Source: an uncultured Flavobacteriales bacterium (GTDB lineage: Bacteria; Bacteroidota; Bacteroidia; Flavobacteriales_D; Sanyastnellaceae). Taken from it: a stretch of DNA of 64,000 nt. Below the pieces are notes generated by a model that saw only the letters and a program-made list of their open reading frames with translations, searched no databases and was not told where the DNA came from. The stretch spans positions 1 through 64,000 of the forward strand of contig CALLLH010000014.1 in assembly GCA_938082505.1 (NCBI GenBank), written 5' to 3'. The position numbers and the translations under genes are program-made. Shown here piece after piece: positions 32,278 through 34,714 of this stretch. Every line of letters begins with the position of its first letter. The first letter of the stretch is position 1.

Positions 32278-32298
32278 TGGCGCTGAAATAGTATAATA

Positions 32299-32306
32299 TA
32301 AATTTG
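32299..32306 (+). promoter_or_regulatory. -7 promoter box (TAAATTTG) of the cysteine-leader operon
   Basis: An exact TAnnTTTG match inside an AT-rich patch (32276-32326) that stands out in this GC-rich region. Transcription should begin near 32311-32313, placing the leader ORF within about 15 nt of the RNA 5' end. No good -33 TTTG is seen. Confidence 0.65.
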
Positions 32307-32327
32307 ATGACTATCTTTAAGTCATCA
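32305..32327. promoter_or_regulatory. 8-bp inverted repeat over the predicted transcription start
   Basis: TGATGACT (32305-32312) and AGTCATCA (32320-32327) are perfectly complementary around ATCTTTA. The repeat overlaps the end of the -7 box and the first base of the leader ATG. It could be an operator for a dimeric regulator or a small RNA hairpin at the leader start. Confidence 0.4.
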
Positions 32328-32407
32328 TGATGCGCATTGCACTTTGCTGTTGCTGTTGTTGTCCGGCCCCACCGGGCAGGTTGCCGTCATGCACGGGAGA
32401 AGATTGA
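32327..32407 (+). CDS. Cysteine leader peptide (six consecutive Cys codons)
   Basis: A 26-codon ORF starting ATG ATG at 32327 and ending TGA at 32405-32407. It begins MMRIALCCCCCC; codons 7-12 (32345-32362) are TGC TGT TGC TGT TGT TGT, and one more Cys is at codon 22. It starts within ~15 nt of the predicted transcription start and ends 33 nt before an intrinsic terminator. This is the layout of amino-acid-biosynthesis leader peptides (trp, his, leu types), with cysteine as the sensed amino acid. No independent protein function is proposed. The same DNA reads as Leu codons in another frame, but that frame has no ATG and no stop before the terminator. Confidence 0.72.
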   Translation: MMRIALCCCCCCPAPPGRLPSCTGED

Positions 32408-32465
32408 TTCTCCCCAATCCATTCTCCTTGACTCAACCGCCCGGCCCTACAAGCCGGGTTTTTTT
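32366..32465 (+). promoter_or_regulatory. Transcription attenuator with mutually exclusive RNA pairings
   Basis: Four segments can be seen. GCCC (32366-32369) pairs with GGGC (32374-32377) just after the Cys codons. CCGGGC (32372-32377) is complementary to GCCCGG (32439-32444), a possible antiterminator. CCCGGC (32440-32445) pairs with GCCGGG (32453-32458) to form the terminator. A ribosome stalled on the early Cys codons would block the first pairing and free the second segment to form the antiterminator. The pairings were found by eye; no folding energy was computed. Confidence 0.6.
32440..32465 (+). terminator. Leader terminator before the ATP-grasp gene
   Basis: Stem CCCGGC/GCCGGG with a 7-nt loop (CCTACAA) and a run of seven T (32459-32465). 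It lies 72 nt upstream of the ATP-grasp ATG and downstream of the promoter, so it acts on the operon itself rather than ending priA alone. Confidence 0.8.
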
Positions 32466-32537
32466 ATGCCCGCTCCCCTCGCCATCCACCCGAATCCAAG
32501 AAAAACGGAATCAATCCACCGAAAAAATACGGCCACC

Positions 32538-33572
32538 ATGAGCACTTCCATTCTCCCCGTCATTCCACCTTCACTTCAAACACCGCCGCGCTTTGAATCC
32601 GGTGGAAAAGGCACCGGCGTCGAAATCCACATCATACACGAGAATGATGCCTGGGTAGAGCCCCTGCGTGCGGAACTGCGGTCGCGGAGCCTGCCTTTCA
32701 AGGAGTGGTTCGTGGATCACCTCGCCATTGATCTCGATGCCGCACCTCCCCAGGGCGTCTTCTACAATAGAATGAGCGCCAGCTCCCACACCCGCGATCA
32801 TAGGCATGCCTGGGAGGCGACCCGGGGTCTGATGGCGTGGCTGGAGGCCCATGGCCGGCGCGTCATCAACAACCGCGTGGCCACGGGATTGGAGGTGAGC
32901 AAGGTGGAGCAGACCATCGCACTGCAGCGGCATGGACTGCTGGTGCCGCGGAGCATGGCAGCCACCGGGGTCGAGGCGCTGCGCGAAGCGGCCGCCCGAT
33001 GGGACGGGCCCTTCATCCTGAAGCCCAATCGGGGTGGCAAGGGAACCGGCGTTCGGTTGATCCGGGATGCCTCCGACCTCGGGCAGGTCATGGCCGTTTT
33101 TGATGAGTACACCCTCGATGGCACGGTTATCCTGCAGGAGTATGTGCAGCCCGCGGATGGACGCGTGCTGCGGCTCGAATTCGTCGGGGGTCGACACCTG
33201 TATACCGTCAGCATCGATGCCGGCGGCGGGTTCGAGTTGTGCCCTGCTGACGGTTGCCAGGTGGGCAATGCTTTTTGTCCGGCCGACGGCCGGGCCCAGT
33301 TCGAGGTGTTGGACCACCACCATCCCGTGGAGTTGAAACGGTGCCTCGATTTCCTGAAGGCTTCTGGCATGGAAGTGGCCGCCATGGAAGCCGCTCCTGA
33401 TGCCGATGGCCGGTTGAAGTTCTACGATGTCAACATCAATACGAACTACAATGCAGCAGCGGAGAAACGCGCTTCCACGGACCACACAGGGATGGGGGCC
33501 ATTGCTGAATTCCTCGGTCGTGAACTGGAAATCGTCCGCGCCCAGGTTCGGACAGAACACCCTGCACCATGA
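32538..33572 (+). CDS. ATP-grasp ligase (RimK/glutathione-synthase-like)
   Basis: 344 residues from ATG 32538; an upstream ATG at 32466 abuts the terminator T-run and is rejected. The N-terminal pre-ATP-grasp part includes VEIHIIHENDAWVEPLRAEL and FYNRMSASSHTRDH. The ATP-grasp core has PFILKPNRGGKGTGVRLI (nucleotide-binding Lys and Gly loop), VILQEYVQ and the metal-binding KFYDVNINTNYN. These ligases join a carboxylate to an amine or thiol via an acyl phosphate. It overlaps the oxidoreductase by 4 nt and follows a cysteine leader attenuator, so its substrate may be cysteine or a cysteine-derived compound; that is inference. The exact substrate is unknown. Confidence 0.88.
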   Translation: MSTSILPVIPPSLQTPPRFESGGKGTGVEIHIIHENDAWVEPLRAELRSRSLPFKEWFVDHLAIDLDAAPPQGVFYNRMSASSHTRDHRHAWEATRGLMAWLEAHGRRVINNRVATGLEVSKVEQTIALQRHGLLVPRSMAATGVEALREAAARWDGPFILKPNRGGKGTGVRLIRDASDLGQVMAVFDEYTLDGTVILQEYVQPADGRVLRLEFVGGRHLYTVSIDAGGGFELCPADGCQVGNAFCPADGRAQFEVLDHHHPVELKRCLDFLKASGMEVAAMEAAPDADGRLKFYDVNINTNYNAAAEKRASTDHTGMGAIAEFLGRELEIVRAQVRTEHPAP

Positions 33573-34714
33573 CAGGCGTGGCCGGTACGGCAGCCCAGCT
33601 GCACGCCATCCGTCAAGCCCATGTCGCCGTGGTGGGGGGCGGCATCATGGGGGCCATGACGGCGGCCCACTTGATCGAGCTTGGAACGGAAGTCACCCTC
33701 TATGACCCGCATCGGCTCGGGTCCGGACCGGGGGCTTCCGTCGACACAGGGCGCAGCTTCAGGGTACACTACGGCAAGGACAGGACCCTGGTGTCCCATG
33801 CGGTCCGCAGCTTCCGTCTCTGGAAGGCGTGGGAGCAGAAGCTGGGCCGGCCTTTGCTCCATGCGACGGGCAAGATGCTGCTGGAGGAACCGGGCGACCG
33901 CCATGCCTTCGAGAGTTGGCAGACCATGCGCAAGATCGGACTGCCGGCCGACCGCCTTTCCGGAGGCATGGTGGCCCAGGAGTGGCCCGGTTTCAAGGCG
34001 GGAGCCGCCACTGTGGACCGTCTGGGCGGCGTCCTCGAGCCGCACGTCATCCTCGACGCCCTTCATGTATGGCTCAAGTCGAGGGGTGTCCATTTCCGTG
34101 GCGAGGCGATGGACCTGGATGCGCGATCGGTGGAGGATGAGCAAGCGAGGCTGCATTTCGACGCGGTCGTCTTGACCGCGGGTGCCTGGACCCGGCGCTT
34201 CATCGAGGCACCCGTGGAGGTGACCCGCCAGGAATTGGTCTACTTTGATGCCGCGGCCCTGGGTGACCGCCTGAACCGCCTGCCGGTATTCAGCCACATG
34301 GAAAGCGGATTCTACGCCATTCCGACGGCGGGCGACGGGCGCATCAAGGTCGCCAACCACCACCCGGGACCGGTCGGCCACCCCGATGGCGACGACCGCA
34401 AGGTGACTCCGGCATTCGAGCAGGCTGCCCGCCAGTTCCTCGGGGCGCACCTCCCAGAACTCAGCGAGGCGGAGGTGGTGCGGCGCCATGTTTGTTTCTA
34501 TACCGGGACAGCGGACCGGGATTTCATCCTCGACCGCACCCGTGAGGGACTCGTCATCGGTGCTGGATTCAGTGGGCACGGCTTCAAATTCTCTCCCTTG
34601 GTCGGACGGCTGCTGGCCCAACTGGCCCTCGGTTTGAAGACGGAAGTGGCCATCGACCGGTTTGCCATGCACCGACAAGCCCTGCATGGCAAGTTGATCA
34701 GATTGGCGGTGTGA
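33569..34714 (+). CDS. Sarcosine-oxidase-like FAD amine oxidoreductase
   Basis: 381 residues. An N-terminal Rossmann FAD motif VAVVGGGIMGAMTAAHLIELG is followed by a DAO-family body. The segment VVRRHVCFYTGTADRDFILD aligns with the part of monomeric sarcosine oxidase and N-methyltryptophan oxidase where Cys carries covalent FAD, and VIGAGFSGHGFKFSPLVG is the C-terminal FAD-binding signature. Such enzymes oxidise secondary or N-methyl amines or cyclic amino acids, releasing hydrogen peroxide. The gene overlaps the ATP-grasp stop by 4 nt (ATGA) and shares the cysteine attenuator, so both act in one pathway. The substrate is unknown; a sulfur-containing cyclic amine such as a thiazolidine is one untested idea. 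Confidence 0.9.
   Translation: MTGVAGTAAQLHAIRQAHVAVVGGGIMGAMTAAHLIELGTEVTLYDPHRLGSGPGASVDTGRSFRVHYGKDRTLVSHAVRSFRLWKAWEQKLGRPLLHATGKMLLEEPGDRHAFESWQTMRKIGLPADRLSGGMVAQEWPGFKAGAATVDRLGGVLEPHVILDALHVWLKSRGVHFRGEAMDLDARSVEDEQARLHFDAVVLTAGAWTRRFIEAPVEVTRQELVYFDAAALGDRLNRLPVFSHMESGFYAIPTAGDGRIKVANHHPGPVGHPDGDDRKVTPAFEQAARQFLGAHLPELSEAEVVRRHVCFYTGTADRDFILDRTREGLVIGAGFSGHGFKFSPLVGRLLAQLALGLKTEVAIDRFAMHRQALHGKLIRLAV

Follow-up and report, generated by a model that had tools for sequence, protein, structure and literature searches.

The window is a stretch of 64,000 nucleotides from an uncultured Flavobacteriales bacterium. It carries a gene for a putative ATP-grasp ligase, followed by a gene for a sarcosine oxidase-like flavoenzyme. 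The pair is preceded by a short cysteine-rich open reading frame (ORF) and by RNA segments able to form three alternative hairpins. No tRNA gene was found in the window. The genes, the ORF and the promoter boxes are located as follows.

32299-32306, forward strand: TAAATTTG box, originally taken as the promoter
32312-32319, forward strand: conserved -7 promoter box TATCTTTA, of the TA-N2-TT type, with predicted transcription start at ~32324
32327-32407, forward strand: leader peptide ORF MMRIALCCCCCCPAPPGRLPSCTGED, ATG start, 26 amino acids, stop codon at 32405-32407, predicted to be nearly leaderless
32345-32362, forward strand: six consecutive Cys control codons, TGC TGT TGC TGT TGT TGT
32538-33572, forward strand: ATP-grasp ligase, LysX/ArgX/RimK fold
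33569-34714, forward strand: monomeric sarcosine oxidase-like FAD enzyme (DAO family)

The leader ORF and its promoter

Orthologues of the ATP-grasp protein, 62–79% identical in sequence, occur in 14 relatives represented by Flavobacteriales metagenome assemblies, 13 from the same genus and one, L031, from another genus of the family. The sarcosine oxidase-like gene follows the ATP-grasp gene in all 14. The sequence of one relative, L033, begins just before the terminator and was therefore left out of the upstream count, although the part of the terminator that it covers is likewise conserved. The element was thus compared at 14 loci, the window and 13 relatives with upstream DNA, which represent two genera of one Flavobacteriales family.

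Each of the 13 relatives has an ORF of 23–26 codons led by ATG or GTG, in which a Cys-rich run occupies the same position; the hairpins and a T-run come next. The 26-codon ORF with six Cys codons described in the original prediction is present in the window, and its run lies mid-ORF, with 14 codons after it. At all 14 loci the run of codons for a single amino acid is kept in frame, and the start and length of the Cys frame are maintained. The spacing from its stop codon to the T-run is 47–58 nt in 13 of the loci, the exception being L028, where an earlier T-run was taken by the script. As had been anticipated for a genuine attenuator, alignment of the homologues reveals conservation of the Cys run, the frame, the spacing and three pairings, the latter with compensatory changes, and among homologues with upstream DNA there are no cases in which the operon is kept and the element lost.

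The promoter had originally been assigned to an exact TAnnTTTG match. This box is indeed present, but its position is not conserved and it is probably not the main promoter; the conserved box is TATCTTTA, located closer to the ORF. In 13 of the 14 leaders a TA-N2-TT box has its 3' end 4–7 nt ahead of the start codon (L031 lacks a well-placed one). A box so placed is found for just 0.9% of all ATGs in the same sequences, or for 8% if the comparison is limited to ATGs preceded by AT-rich DNA. The sigma-A box of Flavobacterium psychrophilum extends from -12 to -5 (PMC9723704), and the position of the -7 box would accordingly place the transcription start 0–3 nt before the leader start codon. Judged by this box position, the ORF is predicted to be nearly leaderless, with a 5' UTR of 0–3 nt in 13 of the 14 leaders. 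Leaderless mRNAs are rare in Bacteroides, where ~3.7% of 5' UTRs are under 10 nt (PMC7366714).

A stretch resembling TTGTATAAT lies ~20 nt ahead of the -7 box, at 32290–32300 of the window, and occurs at the same place in L023–L028 and L036, that is, in one part of the genus only. It may be a -33 element or a regulator site.

Alternative pairings of the leader RNA

The RNA from the last Cys codon onward contains four segments, which can pair in three ways.

32360-32378, forward strand: pre-emptor hairpin 1:2, 7 bp (32360-32366 with 32372-32378), with the last Cys codon in the 5' arm
32372-32389, forward strand: antiterminator 5' arm (segment 2)
32429-32444, forward strand: antiterminator 3' arm (segment 3), paired with segment 2 as 32372-32377 with 32439-32444, 32379-32383 with 32434-32438, and 32386-32389 with 32429-32432
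32439-32465, forward strand: intrinsic terminator 3:4 (32439-32445 with 32453-32459), with a T-run of seven T at 32459-32465

The pre-emptor, antiterminator and terminator are mutually exclusive, and each of them is retained by the relatives. The hairpin and the seven T residues noted earlier before the structural gene are present. The pre-emptor proposed at the same time exists as well, but its suggested 4-bp helix is not the conserved one, the actual helix having 7 bp. The antiterminator was correctly recognized in its core, the first of the three pairings listed; it is longer than had been suggested, with two further helices outside the core.

In the alignment, 99% of the cells of the terminator stem are paired. 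The antiterminator core, CCGGGC/GCCCGG, is paired in 93% of the cells and is nearly invariant because its two strands are also needed for the pre-emptor and the terminator. The segment cores hardly vary and therefore contribute no covariation themselves. In the pre-emptor, a G-C pair is replaced by A-U in L023, L025 and L036, with both sides changed; the outer antiterminator pairing is weak in these three loci. The outer antiterminator arms, which in the window are GGUUG/CAACC and GUCA/UGAC, have other complementary letters in L029 and L030 (CGGUAC/GUAUUG) and in L031 (GGGUG/CACCC).

The outer arms alone have a mean energy of -6.4 kcal/mol in their native combinations as compared with -4.0 kcal/mol when swapped between species, and none of 20,000 permutations was as good, although such permutation of swapped arms removes shared descent only partly. 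For the whole antiterminator duplex the corresponding values are -22.7 and -18.5 kcal/mol. A covariance model, R1, built from 12 leaders with L034 and L035 left out, recovers both held-out copies, with rough E-values of 6e-7 and 3e-7, respectively. The element is confirmed to be real and far above chance.

The covariance models of Rfam, including T-box, riboswitch and leader families, gave no match above the gathering score. At 66 loci outside Flavobacteriales that encode ATP-grasp proteins of the same family, the element detector yielded just two matches, both weak and misplaced.

Poly-Cys leaders and genes of sulfur metabolism

Elsewhere in the family R1 produced weak matches, with E-values, again rough, of 0.0006–0.07, and many of these are poly-Cys leaders preceding genes of sulfur metabolism. 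Behind them lies a gene for a CysM-type cysteine synthase, with or without a 1-Cys peroxiredoxin gene ahead of it, or else a gene for a nitrite/sulfite reductase; in some loci a gene for a JAMM-type peptidase lies 3' of the cysteine synthase gene. The matches L164–L168, near a tRNA-adjacent hairpin, and L179, L181 and L182, at the ends of other proteins, have no Cys ORF and were discarded as false positives.

A Cys leader is found upstream of all 16 CysM homologues in the set of relatives, which represent 13 genera, with 15 homologues from the same family and one from another. All but one of these leaders are followed by a clear hairpin and T-run. Segment 2 of the CysM leaders pairs better with its own terminator arm than with swapped ones (p = 5e-5). 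In a class-wide sample, 3 of 8 further cysteine synthase homologues have a Cys leader.

The genome from which the window derives contains seven short ORFs with in-frame CCCC, as counted by a TGY x4 pattern that would miss interrupted runs. Only two have a T-run terminator behind them: the ATP-grasp operon leader and the leader MMRFNCCCCCCTLLGALGFRRGRRC of a cysM-like cysteine synthase gene on contig C1. The latter, a second poly-Cys attenuator candidate in the same genome, adds context that was absent from the original prediction. That the cysM-like gene and the ATP-grasp operon are the only genes in the genome with such a leader and a terminator is the strongest argument for cysteine as the signal. 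Cysteine is thus the likely signal, with the Leu frame rejected. Since the same type of leader precedes cysteine synthase, the ATP-grasp/oxidase pair can be placed in a putative cysteine regulon, and it would belong to a gene set for which control by cysteine is itself deduced from the leaders.

Several further arrangements were encountered. Two tandem poly-Cys leader-terminator units precede cysteine synthase or peroxiredoxin-cysteine synthase genes in L171, L175, L176, L177, L204 and L129; such a tandem arrangement is unusual for amino-acid attenuators and might make the response sharper. In L173 (G120:C71:4000-9000) a leader at ~949-1035, consisting of poly-Cys MVLIPNACFVACCCCCPTPPSGRQSAVS and a terminator, precedes a gene for a nitrite/sulfite reductase-like protein. 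L190 (G000:C43:11500-12300, minus strand) has a short ORF with five Cys codons (MVHGITCCCCCWPASGAALSSL) and is without a terminator; it may be due to chance.

Proposed attenuation and the genes under its control

The anatomy, conservation and covariation of the element, together with the similar leader ahead of the cysteine synthase gene of this genome, make it very probable that this is a transcription attenuator which responds to cysteine through the translating ribosome. The logic of the trp, his and leu attenuators with a Cys signal, as first suggested for this DNA, is supported by the conserved run, frame, spacing and pairings. Transcription would begin just a few nucleotides ahead of the leader ATG, which would let the ribosome load on the nearly leaderless Cys-rich ORF while the RNA emerges. 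With ample Cys-tRNA the ribosome would reach the stop codon at 32405 and segments 1 and 2 would pair behind it as the pre-emptor, leaving segment 3 free for segment 4, and RNA polymerase would halt at the T-run. When Cys-tRNA is scarce, the ribosome would stall on the Cys codons, the last of which lies within segment 1. The pre-emptor would then not form, segment 2 would pair with segment 3 over ~15 bp, and in place of the terminator the antiterminator would allow read-through into the ATP-grasp and oxidase genes.

It is also conceivable that the main effect of the Cys leader is on translation of the ATP-grasp gene or is exerted through Rho, a mechanism suggested for cys operons of mycobacteria, with a minor role for the hairpin. 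The poly-Cys leaders of mycobacteria function with no intrinsic terminator (PMC1262725; PMC9031893), and in several of the present relatives only ~10 nt separate the end of the T-run from the likely start codon of the ATP-grasp gene. However, the strong terminator with its T-run is invariant and the exactly competing antiterminator co-varies, which renders this explanation unlikely. A functional small protein, metal- or thiol-binding, with no part in control is more improbable still: peptide ends such as PAPPGRLPSC do recur in the genus, since that part of the ORF doubles as pairing segments 1 and 2, but in L034, L035 and the CysM leaders the peptide end changes completely while the Cys run, the spacing and the pairing stay.

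Sensing of leucine through six Leu codons in the -1 frame, a caveat raised at the outset, derives from the fact that any TGY run reads as YTG (Leu) one base over. In contrast to the Cys frame, the Leu frame has no start codon in 3 of the 14 loci and starts of differing position and type in the rest, and its stop is scattered between 111 nt upstream and 150 nt downstream of the T-run. The Leu reading, which would also have to account for the same leaders before cysteine synthase and a sulfite reductase-like gene, is hardly credible and was ruled out by these inconsistent starts and stops; the Val/Ala frame likewise fails to keep the start, the length and the stop-to-T-run spacing. That the hairpin is a mere priA terminator and the Cys-rich ORF incidental is just as implausible: in most relatives the element does have priA on one side and the ATP-grasp gene on the other, but the Cys run, the alternative pairings and the distance from leader stop to T-run are conserved, and in L031, where the upstream gene is not priA, the whole element is intact before the ATP-grasp gene and therefore belongs to the ATP-grasp operon and travels with it.

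The proposed attenuator shares with the trp, his and leu attenuators of Proteobacteria the control codons in a short ORF, the 1:2, 2:3 and 3:4 alternatives and the intrinsic terminator. It differs from them in its Cys codons, its predicted 5' UTR of 0–3 nt, its occurrence in Bacteroidota and in preceding genes not known for cysteine synthesis.

The poly-Cys leaders of mycobacteria were predicted, without terminators (PMC1262725), and were later demonstrated by Canestrari et al. 2020, as cited in passages of PMC9031893 and PMC13236596. They similarly have a run of Cys codons in a leaderless or nearly leaderless short ORF before sulfur genes, leaderlessness being a prediction in the present case. 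The mycobacterial leaders are cysteine-responsive, whereas for the window element we infer such a response. They belong to an unrelated phylum and have no conserved terminator hairpin and a Cys run near the stop codon, as opposed to a full terminator/antiterminator and a Cys run mid-ORF in the window.

The uORFC-8-2 motif before cysS in Rhodobacterales, for which attenuation was predicted (PMC8632094), also combines Cys codons in an upstream ORF with a subsequent intrinsic terminator. Its two Cys codons, at positions 14-15, lie inside the first stem and its gene encodes cysteinyl-tRNA synthetase; the window element is not located before cysS, is not from Rhodobacterales, and differs in structure and lineage. 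Leader-peptide attenuation has been proposed for amino-acid operons of F. psychrophilum, also a flavobacterium, with cysteine not named in the relevant main-text passage (PMC9723704). A literature search, with most subscription journals outside its coverage, found no cysteine attenuator in Bacteroidota. As far as the searched literature shows, this would be a new phylum for cysteine leader-peptide attenuation, and the combination of a full terminator switch with a predicted leaderless leader was not found described there.

The ATP-grasp protein shows remote sequence likeness to RimK and LysX. A sequence search of the PDB gave just remote matches to Ddl and biotin carboxylase, while the AlphaFold model (mean pLDDT 82) has ArgX, LysX, PsnB and RimK as its nearest PDB structures; as modeled, the protein has the fold of an amide- or ester-forming ligase. 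The motifs HENxxW, FYNRMSASSHTR, FELCPAD and YDVNxNTNYN are highly conserved.

Alignment of the oxidase with monomeric sarcosine oxidase (E 4e-35) shows that it retains R49, R52, Y55, Y254, K265, H269, C315, Y317 and K348. Of these, C315 is presumably the covalent flavin site and K265 the oxygen-activating residue. The substrate is likely to be a secondary amino acid. Bacillus sarcosine oxidase has weak activity on L-thioproline (PMC12582975), and thioproline, formed of cysteine plus formaldehyde, is a guess for the substrate here; it remains a guess because the kept catalytic residues fit any secondary amino acid.

The original statement that the regulated genes are not recognized cysteine genes stands, neither having a known role in cysteine metabolism. 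Putative membership of a cysteine-controlled set beside cysM makes the function of the two enzymes directly testable, and they may serve cysteine or thiol metabolism. A broader and rather tentative proposal is that Bacteroidota possess a cysteine regulon operated by near-leaderless poly-Cys attenuators that arose independently of those of mycobacteria, in which the ATP-grasp/oxidase pair would be an unrecognized supply route for cysteine or thiols, activated when cysteine runs short, for example through cysteine release from a cyclic or N-substituted adduct.

Outside Flavobacteriales the ATP-grasp homologues have neither conserved neighbours nor a Cys leader, and a sulfur theme was absent from the ten neighbours sampled. 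Homologues sharing 42–50% identity are found singly in Proteobacteria, Acidobacteria and Firmicutes, and since this widespread family is without an assigned function, a clue from one lineage carries far. Across L037–L102, with no stable gene neighbourhood, the family keeps the succession HENxxW, NRMSASSHTR, FELCPAD and YDVNxNTNYN very conserved.
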